Assembly: GCF_013912375.1 (NCBI RefSeq) | Contig: NZ_JACETV010000006.1 | Coordinates: forward strand, 1 to 64,000 | DNA: 64,000 nt | Reading direction: 5' to 3' | Source: Emticicia sp. BO119 | GTDB taxonomy: Bacteria > Bacteroidota > Bacteroidia > Cytophagales > Spirosomataceae | Shown here: positions 49,678 to 57,880 of the stretch, in pieces | Numbering within the stretch: position 1 is the first letter of the stretch | Layout of the letters: the number at the start of each line of letters is the position of its first letter | The notes under the pieces: model-generated | Database searches by the model: none | What the model saw: only the letters and a program-made list of their open reading frames with translations | What the model was told of the DNA's origin: nothing | Position numbers and translations under genes: made by a program

Positions 49678-50610
49678 CAGGTATCTGTTTTTTGCTTGTG
49701 ATGTAGAATCAAAAGGTAAATTTCTTTTGTTTTTTATAGAATCCAACCTTGCTGCATTTCTGGCACGGGTTTCCTCCAGTGTGGCACTCAGTAAATCGAC
49801 CAGATATTTTACATCGTCTGTCTGAATAAAGTCAGGATTCTTTTGTACTGCCTCATAGTTCTCCTGCTCACTATGCGCGTCCCATACCGTTATCCTTAAA
49901 CCTGCATTGTGTGCAATTTCTACCTCTTCTGCAGAAATCTGATTGGTAGAAATGGTAATACCATAAAGTCCTAATTTTTTTGCGGTAATCAGACCCTCCT
50001 CAAAATTCTTGGGATAAATAAACAACTTATACCGGCTTCGTTTGGTCTGTAAAACTTTAAGAAATTCTTCATCAGCTGACTCAATACAAATCTTTCTTTG
50101 TAAGTCGTATTTTTCAACTATTGCAATAATGGCCTCAGCAAACTGATCATAATAAGCAGCATTATCAGTTGTTTCTCTATAAAGCTTGCAATCAAAAGTA
50201 AAACGATAACTTGATACATCAGGGATATTTGAAAATAACTGCTCCAATGAAACAATAGCATAAGTCATATATGGAGATTCATTATACTGTCCGTTCCTGA
50301 TCTGCTGCCAGGTCAGCGAGTTCACAATACCTGTTAAATCTGTCTTGGTCGATAAATCATTGTCATGAAAGGCAACTAATACCCCATCATTTGTCATCTG
50401 GATATCTATCTCACTTCCGTCTGTACCAAGATTAATACAATTGGCTATAGACTCAAAAGAATTCATCGGATACGTTGATGCAATACCCATTCCCCCATGC
50501 CCTAAGACCGTAATCATATCACGGTTAAGATTATCAATCTCAAAAATAATTTCCTCTTTTTCACAAGAAGTCATAACAAGTATTAAGAAAAGCCGGAGGA
50601 TTCTGTTCAT
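49483..50610 (-). CDS. Glycerophosphodiester phosphodiesterase family lipoprotein, C-terminus antisense to LytTR gene
   Basis: A 375-aa GDPD enzyme, which hydrolyses glycerophosphodiesters to glycerol-3-phosphate and alcohol. Lipoprotein signal MNRILRLFLILVMTSC. Domain about 33-270: VLGHGGMGI with first His, GSEIDIQMTNDGVLVAFHDNDLST with the metal Glu/Asp and second His, and a closing DFIQTDDVKYLVDLL. The GDPD fold is complete by about residue 272. Residues about 311-375 are read antisense through the LytTR coding region and look unlike any domain, so the ancestral stop was probably lost. Confidence 0.85.
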   Translation of the reverse strand: MNRILRLFLILVMTSCEKEEIIFEIDNLNRDMITVLGHGGMGIASTYPMNSFESIANCINLGTDGSEIDIQMTNDGVLVAFHDNDLSTKTDLTGIVNSLTWQQIRNGQYNESPYMTYAIVSLEQLFSNIPDVSSYRFTFDCKLYRETTDNAAYYDQFAEAIIAIVEKYDLQRKICIESADEEFLKVLQTKRSRYKLFIYPKNFEEGLITAKKLGLYGITISTNQISAEEVEIAHNAGLRITVWDAHSEQENYEAVQKNPDFIQTDDVKYLVDLLSATLEETRARNAARLDSIKNKRNLPFDSTSQAKNRYLLISFTFNKFFECLPVSVADGKEGFSRGTGLIGNWYNLYFFFINSLNSIEGDNIRVMDTNKLARW

Positions 50611-50636
50611 ATAAATTCATATATCTTAATTCAGAC

Positions 50637-51152
50637 CTAAAAGCTGTATCCCACAGACAACCCATACCAATGTTTGAATGATTGGTTTATAGAAACAATC
50701 GGACTATAATTAACACGAACCATCATACCCCCATTACTTTTCTGATAACGATACCCAACAGTAAAATTAGAGCTAAGACTATTTTGTCGATTAACCCTAA
50801 AATCCACTGTACTTGCCCCAACAATACTCGTAAAAGTTTGGCCAATACCTACTTCAGCATGATGGGTTTTGCCGTAATAAGCATTCAATGCAAACGGAAT
50901 GGTTATATCAGGGTTCAGGTTTGTTTCAAAATCTCTTAATCGGTAAGTACCAACCCCCAATCTGACACCAATGTGTAATTTCTTCTGCTGGTAAATGAAG
51001 CGTTCGTAGTTAATAGAACCATAACCTCCCATACCTAAAGCTTCTACATAAATTGAATTGAGCGCTAAAGGTTTTAGTAACTGTTGCGTAAAAGCTGCTT
51101 TATAAAAAAAACAGAACGGGCAAATTATTGAAAAGATTAGTTTAGTATTCAT
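50637..51152 (-). CDS. Probable small outer-membrane beta-barrel protein
   Basis: A 171-aa exported protein. The ATG at 51152 gives a signal-like start (NTKLIFSIICPFCFFYKAAFTQ); the longer frame to 51293 is rejected. The mature part alternates polar and apolar residues with strand-like blocks, such as YGSINYERFIY, LHIGVRLGVGTYRL, HHAEVGIGQTF and SNFTVGYRYQ. It ends with a C-terminal aromatic (LSVGYSF), as outer-membrane barrels do. It starts 26 bp upstream of the GDPD gene and may be its operon partner. No family recognised. Confidence 0.7.
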   Translation of the reverse strand: MNTKLIFSIICPFCFFYKAAFTQQLLKPLALNSIYVEALGMGGYGSINYERFIYQQKKLHIGVRLGVGTYRLRDFETNLNPDITIPFALNAYYGKTHHAEVGIGQTFTSIVGASTVDFRVNRQNSLSSNFTVGYRYQKSNGGMMVRVNYSPIVSINQSFKHWYGLSVGYSF

Positions 51153-51311
51153 GCAATCGATTATGCTGTTAAAATGAGAGCATTTCATGTAACAATCATA
51201 ATAGGTGTAGTATGTAACAATGACGAGCCGAATAATAATTTGGTTGCACAAGAAACATATTTTGTAGAAAGTTATAAAGGAGTTATTCAGCACAAAATGA
51301 ATGCTTAACCA

Positions 51312-51340
51312 TTGAGATTCATCAAAAAAGTTTAATTTTG
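51312..51340 (+). promoter_or_regulatory. Promoter of the 51363 gene
   Basis: TTG (51312-51314), 18-bp spacer, TAATTTTG (51333-51340) followed by tatc. It predicts a leader of about 16 nt. Confidence 0.6.
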
Positions 51341-51362
51341 TATCAACAAAAAAAAATTACCT

Positions 51363-51854
51363 ATGCTTAATGCTCAAAAAACTCTGAAGTTTACCCTCAG
51401 TCTTATATGCTTTTTGTGCTTATCTGTTTTATATGCACAAGCACAATATTATCCAGGATATGGTCGTGGTTACGGTGGCGGTTTGGGCGGTGGTTTAAAC
51501 AGATACGGAAGCGAGTTTGATAATCCAAAACCAAAAGGCCCTTTAGACCCTGATGAGCTCGCCAAAGAAGAAACACGCTGGATGGTAAAAAAACTTAAAC
51601 TGACTGATGAACAAGAAATTTTAGTTTCATCTTTAAATGAAGACTACGCCTACCAACGTAAAGATTTATACGATCGTATCAAAAAAGATTTTGGTGCCGA
51701 ACGCCCTACTCCGCAACAAATTAATGACGCCAAAGCTAAAATGGCAGCATTAGAAGAAAAACAAAATAAAGAATTAGAAAAGATATTTACTCCTGAACAA
51801 TTCAAGATTTATTCAGATAAGAAAGAAGATGCCAAGAAAAAAGCTAAACAATAA
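51363..51854 (+). CDS. Secreted glycine-rich protein with LTxxQ-like (Spy/CpxP-type) helical region
   Basis: A 163-aa exported protein. Signal peptide 1-27 (ending YAQAQ), a Gly/Tyr-rich stretch (PGYGRGYGGGLGGGLNRYG), then a charged helical part. That part contains two LTxxQ-like motifs, MVKKLKLTDEQEILV near 74-88 and KIFTPEQFKIYSD near 140-152. This arrangement resembles Spy/CpxP periplasmic chaperones; the Gly-rich segment is an addition. Highly Lys/Glu-rich C-terminus. Assignment is tentative. Confidence 0.7.
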   Translation: MLNAQKTLKFTLSLICFLCLSVLYAQAQYYPGYGRGYGGGLGGGLNRYGSEFDNPKPKGPLDPDELAKEETRWMVKKLKLTDEQEILVSSLNEDYAYQRKDLYDRIKKDFGAERPTPQQINDAKAKMAALEEKQNKELEKIFTPEQFKIYSDKKEDAKKKAKQ

Positions 51855-51910
51855 GATAATTTTCTCGTTATAAAGTAGAAATCCATTATCTTATCATTCA
51901 TGATTAGCCA

Positions 51911-52669
51911 ATGCTTGTCAAGCCTCTTTTCAAAAGATTAAATGCTGTCTGTTGTTGCTTAGGAGTTTCGATATTTCTGAATTTCTTCTTATACTCCTTC
52001 TCACAAGCACAAAGTACCCATTTATTGTCAGACTCCATTTTGTTAAAACCACCTGATGCTCCTAAAAGAGGGCTTGGATTTGTTCTTAACTGGGACGCAC
52101 GAAGGTCTTTCGTAAAAAATCAAAGGGTCAATATCTGGGGAATCAATACAGGCATCGTGTTCGGTAAAAAACGAAACCAGATTACAGTGGGTTATTATTG
52201 GCTGAACTTCAATTCTTATTTAAAGTTACTGGACTTCCGCAGAAATAACTCCAAATTGGTTAATATTGATTATTACACCAAAACAGACTTGTATTTTTTT
52301 AGCCTGATGTATTGGAAGAATTTTATAGAAACAAGACGTTGGCGTGTGAGCATGCCAGTTGAAGTGGGGGTAGGTGCAACAAAAAACCAAGGAACAGATT
52401 TATTAACTGAAATAAAAATCTGGAAAAGACAAGATTTTTTTCTTCCCGTTCAGTCAGGCCTGTACGCCAAATGGAAAGCTACCCGATGGGTTGGTCTATC
52501 GGTGCAAGGTGGTTATAGATATGCACTCATATCTAAAAATATTCAGGAAAACTATGATGGTTTTTATTATAGCTTCGGGGCAGAACTTCAGCCTGAATTA
52601 TTCAAGGATATTTACCGATGGGTTTTCAGGAAAAAACGAACTCAAGTCATTCCTCCGGCTCAACCATAA
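51911..52669 (+). CDS. Secreted protein of unknown function, probable outer-membrane barrel
   Basis: A 252-aa protein with a signal peptide (to about residue 34, FFLYSFSQAQ). The mature part shows alternating strands such as QRVNIWGINTGIVFG, NQITVGYYWLNFN, YFFSLMYWKNFI, RWRVSMPVEVGVGAT and WVGLSVQGGYRYAL, consistent with a beta-barrel. It ends in a basic, proline-containing tail rather than a terminal aromatic residue. No family recognised. It follows the 51363 gene by 56 bp. Confidence 0.65.
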   Translation: MLVKPLFKRLNAVCCCLGVSIFLNFFLYSFSQAQSTHLLSDSILLKPPDAPKRGLGFVLNWDARRSFVKNQRVNIWGINTGIVFGKKRNQITVGYYWLNFNSYLKLLDFRRNNSKLVNIDYYTKTDLYFFSLMYWKNFIETRRWRVSMPVEVGVGATKNQGTDLLTEIKIWKRQDFFLPVQSGLYAKWKATRWVGLSVQGGYRYALISKNIQENYDGFYYSFGAELQPELFKDIYRWVFRKKRTQVIPPAQP

Positions 52670-52910
52670 CAGAGATGTAATATTTTTTTAGAATAAGACA
52701 ATAAACTCAATAAATCTAAGTTTAATATATCCAGGCAAAAGGATTATATTGAAATTTAACAATTACATGATTTTATTTCATTATGCTTATATTTTTTTTT
52801 CAGCTAAATCTATATCACTCATTTGATTTATGCTGACTAACAAAAAAGACTGAAAAAATTTGGTAGCTATATTTTCACCGTTCGTCTATAAATTCTTTGA
52901 AGCATAAATT

Positions 52911-52940
52911 TTGCACAATATAAAATTTGTATTAAATTTG
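52911..52940 (+). promoter_or_regulatory. Promoter of small RNA A
   Basis: TTG (52911-52913), 19-bp spacer, TAAATTTG (52933-52940). Confidence 0.6.
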
Positions 52941-52945
52941 ACTTA

Positions 52946-53012
52946 TGAATAGATGGTTTGAATCGGCGTAACGAATATATTTCAAGAAAATTATAAAATT
53001 TCTTGTTTTTTT
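52946..53012 (+). ncRNA. Candidate small RNA A (about 67 nt)
   Basis: Predicted from a promoter ending at 52940 and a terminator: caagaaa (52983-52989) / tttcttg (52999-53005) followed by seven T (53006-53012). A micro-ORF of 8 codons starts at the predicted 5' end but is not convincing. It is not a recognised RNA family. Confidence 0.45.
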
Positions 53013-53034
53013 ACCAGAGTTTTTTTTACATTTG
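53003..53034 (+). promoter_or_regulatory. Distal promoter of small RNA B
   Basis: TTG (53003-53005), 21-bp spacer, TACATTTG (53027-53034). Its TTG overlaps the terminator stem of RNA A. Confidence 0.5.
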
Positions 53035-53065
53035 TCGTATCAAAAATAAATAATTAAAAAAATAC

Positions 53066-53097
53066 TTGTTTAGTTATTAATTTCGTTTTTATATTTG
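53066..53097 (+). promoter_or_regulatory. Proximal promoter of small RNA B
   Basis: TTG (53066-53068), 21-bp spacer, TATATTTG (53090-53097); same geometry as the distal one. Confidence 0.6.
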
Positions 53098-53103
53098 AAA
53101 CTG

Positions 53104-53260
53104 AAATCATTGCGAAAGAAATGTGAAAGATCAGCAGAATTTCAGATAAATGCTTATTTTTTTAAGCACTCCTAAATAAGAATAAAAATATTAAAGATAA
53201 AAGTTGTGTGGATTTAGTAGCGGGAAAGGCTGGAGTCATTTACTCCAGTCCTTTTTTTTT
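53104..53260 (+). ncRNA. Candidate small RNA B (about 157 nt)
   Basis: From the proximal promoter to the terminator at 53228-53260. Possible hairpins are ctgaaat/atttcag (53101-53107 / 53139-53145) and tgctta/taagca (53151-53156 / 53163-53168). Then comes the AT-rich, apparently unpaired segment ataaaagttgtgtggatt (53197-53214), identical in RNA C. The terminator stem is ctggagt/actccag followed by nine T. It is not a family I recognise; function unknown, probably trans-acting (inference). Confidence 0.6.
53228..53260 (+). terminator. Terminator of small RNA B
   Basis: Ctggagt (53230-53236) / actccag (53242-53248), extended by gg/cc across a bulge, then T9 (53252-53260). Confidence 0.85.
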
Positions 53261-53321
53261 ATACCTTTTTATTTTAATCCCTTTTTAACCTTCTATTAAT
53301 AACAATTTTAATACCTTCTTC

Positions 53322-53329
53322 TAATTTTG
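53322..53329 (+). promoter_or_regulatory. Possible -7 element of small RNA C
   Basis: TAATTTTG followed by tatc. No TTG is found at the expected upstream distance, so this promoter is weaker evidence than those of A and B. Confidence 0.4.
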
Positions 53330-53335
53330 TATCAG

Positions 53336-53474
53336 ATAAGTCGTCCGGATTAATCATCTTGCCATTAGATAATATTTTCAGATTCGATATTATTAAGAAC
53401 GTAATATAGTTTTTTCATAAAAGTTGTGTGGATTCAATAGGACAAAGGCTGGGCAGTTTGACCCAGCTTTTTTT
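53336..53474 (+). ncRNA. Candidate small RNA C (about 139 nt), sibling of RNA B
   Basis: It carries the same 18-nt segment ataaaagttgtgtggatt (53417-53434), exactly 220 bp after the copy in RNA B. A shared aaaggctgg follows that begins the terminator. The terminator is gctggg (53448-53453) / cccagc (53462-53467) with T8. The 5' end is uncertain. The 5' halves of B and C are not alike, so only the segment before the terminator plus the terminator entry are conserved. Confidence 0.6.
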
Positions 53475-53475
53475 T
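53444..53475 (+). terminator. Terminator of small RNA C
   Basis: Gctggg (53448-53453) / cccagc (53462-53467), then T8 (53468-53475). Confidence 0.85.
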
Positions 53476-53694
53476 CTTTTAATGATCAAGTTGATTATTA
53501 CCTTTTAAAAATCTGTATTGAAACGAATTTCTATCTGCAAAACAGCTTTTAACTCTTTTTTAATTTCATATTAAAGTTATCTTCATGTGGCATTCTCAAT
53601 TTTGATAGTGTAATACTAAGCAAATGTCTGGCAAGGGTATTATCAAAATTTTATTTTATCAGATTAATTAATTAACTTAAAATTCAATATAACT

Positions 53695-54384
53695 ATGCCA
53701 AATGATATGAGAGTATTAGTAGTCGAAGATGAGCCAAAATTAGCCGAGTTTGTTAAAAAAGGATTAGAAGAAAATGCGTGTAATGTAGATATTGCTTATG
53801 ATGGACAAATCGGCAAAAATATGGCATTGAGTAATCCATACGATGTTTTAGTCCTTGATGTAAACTTACCTAAAATAAATGGTTTCGATTTAGCTCAACA
53901 ACTTCGACAGGAGCAGTTAGGCACCCCTATTCTTATGCTGACAGCTATGGGAAGTATCAACGATAAATTAGTTGGATTCGGTGCTGGGGCAGATGATTAT
54001 CTGGTAAAACCTTTTGAATTCAGAGAATTGTTAGTTCGCTTACGAGCTTTGCAACGTCGCTCAAATGATATGTTGCCTCAACAAAATATACTGAAGGTAG
54101 CCGATCTTGAGCTTGACCTGAACGAAAAAGTAGCCAGAAGAGGACAACATACTATTGATTTAACTGCCCGTGAGTTTGCTTTACTTGAATACCTCATGCG
54201 CAATAGAGGACGTGTAGTATCGCGTGTTGATATTGCCGAAAAAGTATGGGATATACATTTTGATACCGGAACCAACACAATAGATGTATATATTAATTTC
54301 TTGCGCAAAAAAATTGATAAAGATTTCACAACTAAACTGATTCATACGGTAGTAGGAATGGGTTATATACTGAAAGAAGACTAA
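53695..54384 (+). CDS. OmpR/PhoB-family response regulator
   Basis: A 229-aa two-component regulator. Receiver domain 1-120 has E11-D12-E13, phospho-acceptor Asp55 (LVLDVNLP), Thr83 and Lys105 (YLVKPFEF). The winged-helix DNA-binding domain, about 130-228, includes LTAREFALLEYLMRNRGRVVSR and the closing VVGMGYIL. It lies 9 bp upstream of its kinase gene. CusR/CopR-like proteins are the closest recognisable kind, but no metal gene is adjacent. Confidence 0.94.
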   Translation: MPNDMRVLVVEDEPKLAEFVKKGLEENACNVDIAYDGQIGKNMALSNPYDVLVLDVNLPKINGFDLAQQLRQEQLGTPILMLTAMGSINDKLVGFGAGADDYLVKPFEFRELLVRLRALQRRSNDMLPQQNILKVADLELDLNEKVARRGQHTIDLTAREFALLEYLMRNRGRVVSRVDIAEKVWDIHFDTGTNTIDVYINFLRKKIDKDFTTKLIHTVVGMGYILKED

Positions 54385-54393
54385 GGGCTTATA

Positions 54394-55764
54394 ATGAAAA
54401 TTGTAGATAGACAACCGCTTCGTGCTTCATTGATAGTTTCCATTCTATTTGGGGCATTTTCACTTGTAATCTATAATTTTTATGCAGATTTCCGGCAGAA
54501 AGAGTTTCTCAAAATTCTGAAACAGAATGCCATTTCGCGCGAACGCTTGTTGGCAGACAGTACCTTCTTGACACCAGAGCTTCTTGAGCGAATCGGAAAA
54601 TCTAACTCCGAGCTTACCATGACAGGCGAAGCTACTGGCATTTATGATACGACTGGTAAGGCTATTTATGTCTCTTCTGCCGAAAATCAACTACCTCCTA
54701 ATCTGCTCAAACGGGTACTCAAAAAAAAAGAAGTAGCCATCGACAGTCTTGACATTGACCGTATTCTGTTTCTTTATGAGATTCCCGAAACCCACCAGAA
54801 AGTAATTCTGTCAACTGAAGCGATAGACGATTTTGGCTATGCCAAGCAAGAGAGATTAAGAGATTTATTAATCGTCGGTACATTCATTGCAATTATTGTA
54901 ATTATCCTGATGATGCGCTTTTTTGTAAAACGTGACGTAAAACCCATAGGCCAGATTGCCGACCGTATGGAACAGATTACGGCTCATGACTCTAATCAGC
55001 GGTTACCAGAGGCTAATTTACATGATGAAGTAGGACAAATGGCCCGTACATTTAACGATTTGCTCGATAGACTGGAATTTGCCTACACACAGCAGAGAAA
55101 TTTTGTTTCTTATGTAACGCATGAACTTCGAACTCCCCTGACTATTATGCAGGGACAAGCCGAAGTGGCTCTTATGAAAGAAAGAACAAATGACGAGTAT
55201 CGGCAAGCCTTAGAATCTGTAAAGGCAGAAGTACAGGACATGATTAAACTGGTCAACGAACTGTTAGAATTAGTCAGAGCAAATGCAGATGCACATTTGG
55301 TAGATTTGAGACAGGTGAGGGTTGATGACCTGCTATGGCAGGCAAGAGGGCAACTTATCCAGAAAAAACCTCATTATGAAATAAGCGTCGCTTTTGAAGA
55401 AGTACCCGAATCAGAAGATATTACCGTATTGGGTAATGGTGCTCTATTGAAAATGGCTTTTATGAATATCATGGAAAACGCCTGTAAATATAGCGCAGCC
55501 CCTCTTTGCCAGGTACTAATCCATACCAGAAAAAAAGAAGTGGAAGTACGCTTTATTGACCACGGTACCGGAATTCCCGAAGAAGACCTCGAGCATATAT
55601 TTAAACCTTTTTATCGTTCTGTAAATACACACGAAATATCAGGGCATGGAATCGGATTACCGCTTACCAAAAGAATTATTGAAATTCATCGTGGAAAAAT
55701 TTCAATTGAATCAGAAGTTGGACATGGTTCCATTATTATTATTATATTGCCAACAATTGAATAG
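54394..55764 (+). CDS. HAMP-containing sensor histidine kinase
   Basis: A 456-aa inner-membrane kinase. Transmembrane helices are at about 12-31 and 158-178 with a 125-residue periplasmic sensor between them. HAMP lies at about 180-232 and HisKA has phospho-acceptor His243 (YVTHELRTPLTIMQGQAEVAL). The ATPase domain has MNIMENACKYS (N-box), DHGTGIPEEDLEHIFKPFYRS (G1/F-box) and GHGIGLPLTKRIIEIHRG (G2). Forms an operon with the regulator; the next gene follows after 14 bp. Confidence 0.95.
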   Translation: MKIVDRQPLRASLIVSILFGAFSLVIYNFYADFRQKEFLKILKQNAISRERLLADSTFLTPELLERIGKSNSELTMTGEATGIYDTTGKAIYVSSAENQLPPNLLKRVLKKKEVAIDSLDIDRILFLYEIPETHQKVILSTEAIDDFGYAKQERLRDLLIVGTFIAIIVIILMMRFFVKRDVKPIGQIADRMEQITAHDSNQRLPEANLHDEVGQMARTFNDLLDRLEFAYTQQRNFVSYVTHELRTPLTIMQGQAEVALMKERTNDEYRQALESVKAEVQDMIKLVNELLELVRANADAHLVDLRQVRVDDLLWQARGQLIQKKPHYEISVAFEEVPESEDITVLGNGALLKMAFMNIMENACKYSAAPLCQVLIHTRKKEVEVRFIDHGTGIPEEDLEHIFKPFYRSVNTHEISGHGIGLPLTKRIIEIHRGKISIESEVGHGSIIIIILPTIE

Positions 55765-55778
55765 CAATATAATCCTTC

Positions 55779-56633
55779 ATGAAACTTCTTATTTTAGCCG
55801 GGGGTATGTCGTCCCGCATGAAAAAGGCTTTAGATACCGATACTTCTCTTGATTCACGGCTTATCGAACAGGCCAATACCTTACCTAAATGTATGATAGG
55901 ATTAGGTAAAAATGGCCGCCCTTTCATGGACTACGTTCTATATAATGCTTCAAAAGCTGGCATAAAAGAGGTAATATTAATCTTAAATCCAAAAGATAAT
56001 ATTACGCAGACTTATTATCAAAATCTAATGGCAAACCAGAATACCTGGGGACTGGATATAAGATTTGCAAAACAATATATTCCAGAAAACCGTGAAAAAC
56101 CCTTAGGCACAAGTGATGCCATCCAACAGGCATTGGCTCAGTTTCCTGCCTGGAAAGAAAGTCGTTTTATTGTCTGCAATGGTGATAATTTATACCCTTC
56201 TAAGGCATTCAGATTACTATCAGAAGACTCTCATCCAAACGCTATGCTTGATTGGGACACTGGGCTATATACAGTAGAGCGTGTACGCAACTGTGCCATC
56301 ATAAAAAAAGATAAAGAGGGTTTCTTGGTAGATTTATTAGAAAAACCCAGTGATACAGAATGGGAAGAGATTGTTAGCTCTATGTCTCAAATCGGAATCA
56401 GCTGGAATATCTTTGCCTTTACTGCAAAAGAACTTTTGCCCTTCTTAGAAAAAACACCATTGCATCCGATTAGAAATGAAAAGGAAATACCTGTTACTGT
56501 AAAACTTTGGGCAAAGGAAGTACAAAAGAGTATATTTACTATTCCGATTGCCGAAGTTTTGCTGGACCTAACCAGTAAAAACGATATTTCTGAAATCCAG
56601 TCTATTCTCGAAAAAGAATATGGTGATTTTTAA
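55779..56633 (+). CDS. NTP-transferase-type sugar nucleotidyltransferase
   Basis: A 284-aa Rossmann-like nucleotidyltransferase. The NTP-binding start is LLILAGGMSSRM with a downstream Lys in LPKCMIGLGKNGRPFMDYVLYNA. A metal Asp is in FIVCNGDNLYP near residue 130. It resembles glucose-1-phosphate-type transferases but I cannot name the sugar. It lies 14 bp after the kinase gene and may be read through from it. Its stop overlaps the convergent MFS gene by 4 bp. Confidence 0.83.
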   Translation: MKLLILAGGMSSRMKKALDTDTSLDSRLIEQANTLPKCMIGLGKNGRPFMDYVLYNASKAGIKEVILILNPKDNITQTYYQNLMANQNTWGLDIRFAKQYIPENREKPLGTSDAIQQALAQFPAWKESRFIVCNGDNLYPSKAFRLLSEDSHPNAMLDWDTGLYTVERVRNCAIIKKDKEGFLVDLLEKPSDTEWEEIVSSMSQIGISWNIFAFTAKELLPFLEKTPLHPIRNEKEIPVTVKLWAKEVQKSIFTIPIAEVLLDLTSKNDISEIQSILEKEYGDF

Positions 56634-57880
56634 ACTTCCTTTTCTACTACTAAATTTTTGGTAGGGTCAATCAGAAACCATAACATAGAAGCCACTATCA
56701 GACAACCCGCTATTACAAACAAAGGGTAGTTAAAATTACCTGTCTGATTTACGATGATACCAAAAATGATAGTTATGAAAAAACCACCTAATTGACCAGC
56801 AAAATTCATAGCTCCAGCTACTGTCCCCGAATACTGTTTGCCTATGTCTACACATACAGCAAAAGCCACTGGTAAGGTAAAGTCTTTTAATAAAACACAA
56901 AGAGATAGTAAATAACCTGCTGTCTCATTATCTACCGTTAGCCCTGATGCTAAAAAACAAATACTCGAACTCCCCAAGCCTAAAACGCCAACAATACGCC
57001 TGCCTAATTTTAAGCCATAACGCTTGGTTAATAAATCACTGGCAAATCCACCAACAAGGCATCCGATTGCTCCCAAGAAATAAGATAAAGAAATAAAGTT
57101 CTTTGATTGTTCTTCGGTCATGTGCCTGCCTTCCTGAAAATAGGTTGACGACCAGTTTGTAAAGAAATAAGAAGCATAAAAAAAAAGGTGGCACATAAGC
57201 ATCAAAACCCAGACATTAGGATTCTTAATCACAATCCGCCAGTCAACATGGTGGTCAGATACTACCTTTTTTCGGTTCATTTCTATTTCTTCCACCTCTT
57301 TCTGACTTATTCCTGCCATATCGGCTGGTTTATCGCGAAACCAGAAATACCATGTTATTGCCCAGATAGCTCCTACAACCCCCAATATAAAAAAGGCCGT
57401 ACGCCAACCAGCAGCATGTACCAAAGGAATAACTAAAAGCGGCGTTAATGCGCCACCTAACCGTCCTGCAGCCCAGATAACCGATTGTGCTCTACCTACT
57501 TCAACTGACGGAAACCACCGAGAAATAACAATAGACGCATTAGGATAAGCACCTGCTTCACCTGCTCCAAACAAAAAACGGACAATCAATAAATATAAAT
57601 AACTAAAAGCAGTTCCGGTCAGTGCTGTAAAACCTGACCACCATAAAACCACCCTCGTTAGTACTTTCCGGGGGCCTATTCTATCACCTAAAATCCCGGT
57701 TGGTAGTTCAAAAAGTGCATAAGCAAGCGAAAACGCACCTAAAATGTAGCCAAAAGATTCATTATTTAAGTTTAAATCGGCCTTTACATACTTACTCACA
57801 ACATTCATGCAGACTCTGTCAAGATAGGTAATGATGGAAAGCAGAAATAAGCCAAAAAGAACCTGGTAGCGTATTTTCAT
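56630..57880 (-). CDS. MFS transporter, anion:cation symporter (ACS) type
   Basis: A 416-aa inner-membrane carrier with 12 helices. The ATG at 57880 is chosen; an upstream Met at 57904 adds a hydrophilic stretch. ACS-type marks are YLDRVCMNVVSKYV in helix 1, AYALFELPTGILGDRIGPRKVLTRVVLWWSGFTAL (the motif A loop) and FGAGEAGAYPNASIVISRWFP. The group carries organic anions such as hexuronates, glucarate or glycerol-3-phosphate relatives; the actual substrate is unknown. Divergent from the cupredoxin gene. Confidence 0.9.
   Translation of the reverse strand: MKIRYQVLFGLFLLSIITYLDRVCMNVVSKYVKADLNLNNESFGYILGAFSLAYALFELPTGILGDRIGPRKVLTRVVLWWSGFTALTGTAFSYLYLLIVRFLFGAGEAGAYPNASIVISRWFPSVEVGRAQSVIWAAGRLGGALTPLLVIPLVHAAGWRTAFFILGVVGAIWAITWYFWFRDKPADMAGISQKEVEEIEMNRKKVVSDHHVDWRIVIKNPNVWVLMLMCHLFFYASYFFTNWSSTYFQEGRHMTEEQSKNFISLSYFLGAIGCLVGGFASDLLTKRYGLKLGRRIVGVLGLGSSSICFLASGLTVDNETAGYLLSLCVLLKDFTLPVAFAVCVDIGKQYSGTVAGAMNFAGQLGGFFITIIFGIIVNQTGNFNYPLFVIAGCLIVASMLWFLIDPTKNLVVEKEV

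Follow-up and report, generated by a model that had tools for sequence, protein, structure and literature searches.

The first 64,000 nucleotides of contig NZ_JACETV010000006.1 of Emticicia sp. BO119 (assembly GCF_013912375.1, positions 1-64,000, forward strand), called the window here, carry at about 53,104-53,475 a tandem pair of predicted small RNA genes, with all parts on the + strand. The 18-mer ATAAAAGTTGTGTGGATT is present twice, at 53197-53214 and 53417-53434, with a spacing of 220 bp, exactly where an earlier sequence-only reading of the window had placed it. Within it lies the 15-nt core AAAGTTGTGTGGATT, the invariant string used to collect the family described below, which occupies 53200-53214 in unit 1 and 53420-53434 in unit 2 and which, from its conservation, is the putative seed of each RNA. 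Both copies lead into Rho-independent terminators with the eight or nine T residues that had been described. That of unit 1 (53222-53260, stem 53228-53250, nine T at 53252-53260) is recognized by terminator prediction and family covariation, and that of unit 2 (53443-53475, stem 53444-53471, eight T at 53468-53475) by these and by folding. The string AAAGGCTGG, said to follow the 18-mer after 13-15 nt, begins after 10 nt in unit 1 (53225) and after 9 nt in unit 2 (53444), and it is the 5' (left) arm of each terminator stem and no separate element.

TAnnTTTG is the -7 box of Bacteroidota promoters. The two promoters claimed 5' of unit 1 are represented by such boxes at 53027-53034 and 53090-53097. 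The distal box, TACATTTG, is known from its sequence and is one that we take, from general knowledge, to be of the Bacteroidota promoter type. The proximal box belongs to the main promoter of unit 1 (53066-53097), which is supported by sequence and conservation and consists of TTG at 53066-53068, 21 nt, and TATATTTG at 53090-53097. Unit 2 has a -7-like box of its own, absent from the earlier account: TAGTTTTT at 53407-53414, ending 5 nt before the core. With its 5' end placed from the promoter box and its 3' end from the T run, the unit 1 RNA is predicted to be about 158 nt long (53102-53260). Unit 2, judged by promoter box, fold and conservation, would give an RNA of about 56 nt (53418-53475) with the core at its 5' end, so that the equal-sized siblings of 140-160 nt first envisaged give way to a long and a short form. 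The statement that the locus contains no reading frame is correct for long ORFs; with a 30-aa minimum, the only frames that overlap the cores start at TTG and encode 31 and 42 aa.

How accessible would the core be in these RNAs? It had been thought unpaired, and this is partly so, as the mean unpaired probability of the 15 nt is predicted to be 0.50 in unit 1 and 0.59 in unit 2. When unit 1 is cut at 53197, the predicted mean is 0.67. Ten unit-1 orthologs, folded with 95 nt of 5' sequence, give 0.23-0.67 for the core, and each gives 0.67 once the 5' end is moved to 2 nt upstream of it. The fold energy of unit 1 without its T run has a z of -1.5 (14 of 200 shuffles as good), and that of unit 2 a z of -2.5 (2 of 200). 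If the seed is masked in the long form, processing might activate it, a conjecture drawn from these folding predictions.

Exact copies of the 16-mer AAAAGTTGTGTGGATT are confined to these two positions in the 28 contigs (6.57 Mb) of the BO119 genome. If as many as two mismatches are allowed, it is found at 8 places there, versus 9 for the reversed control, and near-exact complements of the core in this genome are likewise not above the reversed control. The shared segment was expected to be conserved in relatives, and the tandem pair is kept in 11/11 Emticicia genomes. In ten of them, BO119 included, both cores are exact, with a copy spacing of 134-223 bp in the nine others; in the eleventh, G009, the second core has diverged by two changes. 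Alignment of the 11 loci presents the units as islands of conservation amid fast-changing flanks. Mean pairwise identity is 0.79 in the promoter block (53060-53103), 0.95 in the 14 nt preceding core 1, 1.0 in core 1, a value partly helped by the cutting of the loci around the first core, and 0.955 in the remainder from core 1 to the T run. It is 0.48 in the spacer between the units and, for unit 2, 0.855 in the promoter box, 0.976 in the core and 0.77 in the terminator. The 5' part of unit 1 (53104-53185) has an identity of 0.52; of the 5' hairpins proposed before the conserved stretch, one is predicted here, at 53151-53168 (TGCTTA / TAAGCA), in sequence that is not conserved. The 14 conserved nt before core 1, ATATTAAAGATA at 53186-53199, have ATTTAAGATA-like counterparts in type-1 units elsewhere and are possibly a processing site or an extension of the seed. 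In 12 Emticicia-type copies of unit 1, TATATTTG or TATCTTTG is found 93-103 nt 5' of the core. The unit 1 5' part of the E. aquatilis group (L016, L018, L022) carries GCAC...GTGCAAC and TTTTGCAA, which are absent in the E. agri group. Judged from these sequences, the tandem pair with its shared segment is real, far beyond chance.

How far does the family extend? Among 200 sampled genomes of the wider family, 32 contain the exact 15-mer, against 0/200 for its reversed control. On reading, 29 of the 32 have an sRNA-like copy, 11 of them belonging to Emticicia itself and the other 18 to seven more genera, and L038, L039 and L348, in which the exact core comes without a terminator, were rejected as false members. 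Records of Emticicia, Lacihabitans, Jiulongibacter and Leadbetterella have 1-5 core copies per genome. NCBI places Emticicia and Lacihabitans in the Leadbetterellaceae, and Jiulongibacter and Leadbetterella are listed under the same family. A scan of named records gave 56 stretches, mostly from these four genera and from MAGs with general or doubtful names; 18 were read directly, and many of the others are loci already read in the genome sample. One of them, L136 from 'Bacteroidetes bacterium B1(2017)', is a clear family copy, while six (L108, L123, L131, L132, L139 and L142; 22-31 bits) proved on reading to have no terminator and were put down to chance.

Searches with models covered greater distances, in samples that included few carriers and under strict filters. 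Model R1 matched 6 of 291 genomes of the order. Clear copies stand in four of these, the own genome and three more from the same broader family; the other two matches, L092 and L091, are weak and on reading were judged to be chance. Model R2 matched 5 of 395 genomes of the phylum. Here the own genome alone gave clear copies, and the other four matches, L338-L341, are weak (27.8-32.2 bits) and were, once read, also ascribed to chance. A second kind of local duplication is seen at L083:956-2117, where some 1.1 kb separates two type-3 copies with near-identical terminators. The BO119 pair belongs to a dispersed, multicopy family of putative sRNA genes.

What do the family members have in common? 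The core lies nearly always about 10 nt 5' of the terminator, whose stem letters vary while pairing is kept; the invariance of the core itself is partly built in, as the loci were collected by exact match. A script found a strong hairpin with a T run at 61 of the 66 distinct core-bearing places. The five exceptions are L034, where a terminator was recognized when the locus was read, L056, whose hairpin is followed by a short T run, the degraded second unit of L010, and L038 and L039, which lack a terminator. Changes on both sides are seen in 14 of 15 terminator pairs, and 83.9% of the cells are paired versus 69.0% when shuffled and 43.5-70.5% when slid, in an alignment of 77 rows (64 distinct) that includes rows from six chance loci and two diverged copies and that, having been fitted to the tested structure, leans toward it.

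A script rule sorts 68 distinct units into three types. The 28 type-1 units, unit 1 among them, have a ATTTAAGATA-like block 5' of the core and TAGTAGCGGGAAAGGCTGG or a near-match 3' of it; in 27 of the 28 a full TAnnTTTG ends 38-103 nt before the core, and some have a second box further up. To type 2 belong 11 units, including unit 2. The gap between a TAGTTTTT-like box and the core is 5 nt in nine of them, as it is in unit 2, and 3 nt in a tenth; full TAnnTTTG was found in 0/11. Type 3 comprises 29 mostly dispersed units. In 14 of them a full box ends 3-5 nt upstream of the core, another 8 have five of the six box letters at that place, and the last 7 have fewer. Since a promoter box stands directly before the core in type 2 and in most of type 3, the RNA should begin at the core in these units. 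The constant distance between core and terminator, and the variable distance between core and promoter, point to a role of the core in the RNA rather than in the promoter.

In keeping with the statement that no named RNA family has this pattern, a scan of 50000-57000 gave no Rfam 15 match at gathering score. The best scores at the locus were those of HrrF (21.8 bits versus a cut-off of 77) and STnc390 (21.6 versus 50), and Rfam 15 found only a tRNA at five loci with other family copies. Among the literature matches listed, the core string occurred only in two unrelated papers, and there was no Emticicia sRNA report and no matching family. The family appears, as far as sequence comparison goes, to be previously undescribed, and to be of a kind already known, the multicopy seed-plus-terminator sRNAs.

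That kind is represented in Bacteroides thetaiotaomicron, the source, in the accessible parts of the three reports, of all the Bacteroidota trans-acting sRNAs with shown targets: GibS, FopS and BatR (PMC11697453, PMC7366714, PMC10861873). FopS, as described in the available text, is a paralogous sRNA family conserved within the Bacteroidaceae (PMC11697453). The family resembles FopS in being multicopy, BO119 having two copies and its relatives as many as five, in its canonical promoters and variable downstream part, and in its occurrence in Bacteroidota with RRM proteins and without Hfq; it differs in number, with 1-5 copies in Leadbetterellaceae-type bacteria against 12-15 per Bacteroidaceae genome in the part of the report at hand (PMC11697453). 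The likeness is one of design, taken from the available description, and kinship in sequence would be conjecture; the core here is predicted to be only partly unpaired. The order of parts in FopS and GibS, a 5' seed and then a terminator, is found in type 2 and many type-3 units, whereas type 1 has a 5' extension. Repression of SusC-type mRNAs is associated with FopS and GibS; the best predicted target of the Emticicia family is a DUF3500 lipoprotein. GibS is a 145-nt RNA, and the conserved 5' segment, single-stranded in GibS and acting as an extended seed against start regions, is a point of likeness; its two seeds, R1 and R2, and its non-canonical promoter motif set it apart, in the sections of the report available (PMC7366714). 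In BatR a 5' extension masks the seed and its removal exposes it, according to the accessible text, and BatR can serve as a model for unit 1 by analogy, with processing of unit 1 conjectural and a likeness that is not one of sequence (PMC10861873). OmrA/OmrB and Qrr, as far as the available text treats them, are alike in comprising several related RNAs per genome with overlapping targets, but they are RNAs of Pseudomonadota, unlike the Emticicia family (PMC11697453).

OmrA/OmrB and Qrr depend on Hfq, for which no match was found in 11/11 Emticicia genomes. RRM_1 matches number two per genome in ten of the 11, BO119 included, and three in G009, one of them partial. This setting of RRM proteins without Hfq resembles that in Bacteroides, where, in the part of the report at hand, the RRM protein RbpB binds FopS (PMC11697453).

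Which mRNAs might the RNAs regulate? A search of mRNA leaders for complementarity had been put forward as a check, and it shows no regulon-wide excess of complementary leaders. The search took in 1337 start regions (those of the window and of 1.59 Mb of contig 1, about a quarter of the genome). The anti-seed words as a set are not enriched there, and duplex energies fall below -12 in 216 regions versus a mean of 195 (sd 40) for 60 shuffled seeds. A depletion of AATCCAC (1 versus 8.2 expected) was discounted, the total being not beyond that of shuffled cores (67 of 200 as low). TCCAYACAAC before ATG has 95 matches in Emticicia, or 71 after removal of 24 inside sRNA genes, versus 65 for the control, and 40 versus 79 in Lacihabitans. 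CCAYACAA before ATGARAAC has 11 versus 10, and five of the 11 are leaders of DUF3500-related lipoproteins.

It is in such a leader that the best single site is found. The DUF3500 lipoprotein gene at G000:C1:657330 has 16 complementary nt, with one G-U pair, in a site that begins about 30 nt before the ATG. The G007 and G001 orthologs of its protein (80% identical) keep the site, and related lipoprotein genes of these two genomes (L257, L273, L254) have CCATACAA in their leaders at nearly the same distance. Across 488 G000-G007 ortholog pairs this lipoprotein is the sole outlier, with -20.1 in the worse partner versus -14.9 for the next pair, and 4 of 120 shuffled seeds reach an equal best-pair value. 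Six of seven leaders of MKT/MRT-type lipoproteins pair at -12.5 to -20.5 kcal/mol, with 0-4 of 300 shuffled seeds as good, in a subset named after the lipoprotein group had been chosen for its best score; 13 other leaders of the wider lipoprotein family cannot be told from the shuffled background, with 30-297 of 300 seeds as good. The site is also absent in the 43-44% identical orthologs and in the G005 relatives, though those genomes carry the sRNAs. We would put forward the DUF3500-related lipoproteins of three close species as a predicted target group, with considerable reserve. Two further candidates were given up. L291, which encodes a 53-aa protein of E. aquatilis and has a 17-nt anti-seed match just before its ATG, was found in only 1 of 11 genomes and is anecdotal; at G000:C2:154667, a candidate also present in G010, the reading frame downstream of the ATG stays open for 40 codons in neither genome. 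An extra core copy, L012, lies about 22 kb from L291 on E. aquatilis G004:C3.

Could the conserved segment have some function other than pairing with mRNA? One might think that it is a binding site for a protein, such as an RRM protein, and that the RNAs titrate that protein in the manner of a CsrB-type sponge, with mRNA pairing absent. Conservation of 15 nt with no visible regulon of complementary leaders is what such a site would leave, and every one of the 11 genomes has at least two RRM_1 matches. Known sponge RNAs carry many binding sites. One site per RNA and 1-5 copies per genome offer little for titration, and we regard a sponge as a rather unlikely explanation, if one to be taken seriously. 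The notion that two terminator regions resemble each other by chance could appeal to there being just two copies in the own genome, but retention of the pair in 11/11 genomes makes it scarcely credible. The scattering of several copies in some genomes might also suggest a dispersed DNA repeat or a mobile cassette devoid of RNA function. We think this highly improbable, as the copies share only about 21 nt, their promoters and terminator stems differ in letters yet keep their form, and no match to the family was found in the viral collection.

Might the pair act in cis, as leader or attenuator of the gene that follows it? The neighbourhood bears on this. Eleven Emticicia-type loci were compared (ten of the 11 genus genomes, with G006 left out, and MAG EMPMRC01). 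In each of them the unit 1 core lies 199-535 bp 3' of a gene of one family, which in the window is at 51911-52669 (+) and encodes 252 aa with no Pfam match; the Emticicia sp. CRIBPO record (L109), placed in another genus, is without a relative of it. The window also encodes, at 51363-51854 (+), a 163-aa protein that is weakly DUF4890 / LTXXQ-like, below curated cut-offs. A response-regulator gene follows the pair in four of the 11 loci, and again in the Prado034 MAG, as a cis-acting leader would have it. But another gene follows in one locus and a gene on the opposite strand in the other six, and in other genera both flanking genes differ. With neighbours that change, no single gene has the units as its leader; two complete terminators, moreover, precede the downstream gene, and there is very little to recommend a role in cis.

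What, then, is the function of the pair? The proposal of sRNAs with a shared seed agrees with the promoter boxes, the terminators, the lack of a long ORF and the position of the conserved stretch just before the terminator. The reading of the units as sRNA genes is supported by their conservation, their promoter boxes, the compensatory changes in their terminators and their dispersal to unrelated gene neighbourhoods. We consider it somewhat more probable than not that the locus contains two sRNA genes of a multicopy family that act by base pairing with mRNA leaders, and the earlier description of a redundant trans-acting pair is plausible. Both RNAs would present AAAGUUGUGUGGAUU, some 10 nt upstream of the terminator hairpin, and by analogy with GibS, FopS and BatR, as far as these are described in the accessible text (PMC7366714, PMC11697453, PMC10861873), we infer that this stretch serves as a seed, base-pairing with mRNA leaders close to the start codon and reducing translation. 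Unit 2 and many of the dispersed copies would start with the seed. In unit 1 the seed would lie behind a 5' extension with its own promoter, so that different signals could feed one regulator; lipoproteins related to the DUF3500 protein at G000:C1:657330 are its tentative targets. More speculative, and in our view improbable as a whole, is an sRNA hub of the Leadbetterellaceae. In it the invariant 15 nt would be either the +1 end of RNAs of about 56-60 nt or a product of longer, partly masked precursors cut at the conserved AU-rich block before the seed, and several promoters would feed one seed controlling surface lipoproteins, with Hfq absent.

The family is a compact set of loci, some of them in isolate genomes, and as such is open to direct testing. 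If the base-pairing interpretation is true, the seed-plus-terminator design without Hfq would be more widespread, reaching the Cytophagales.
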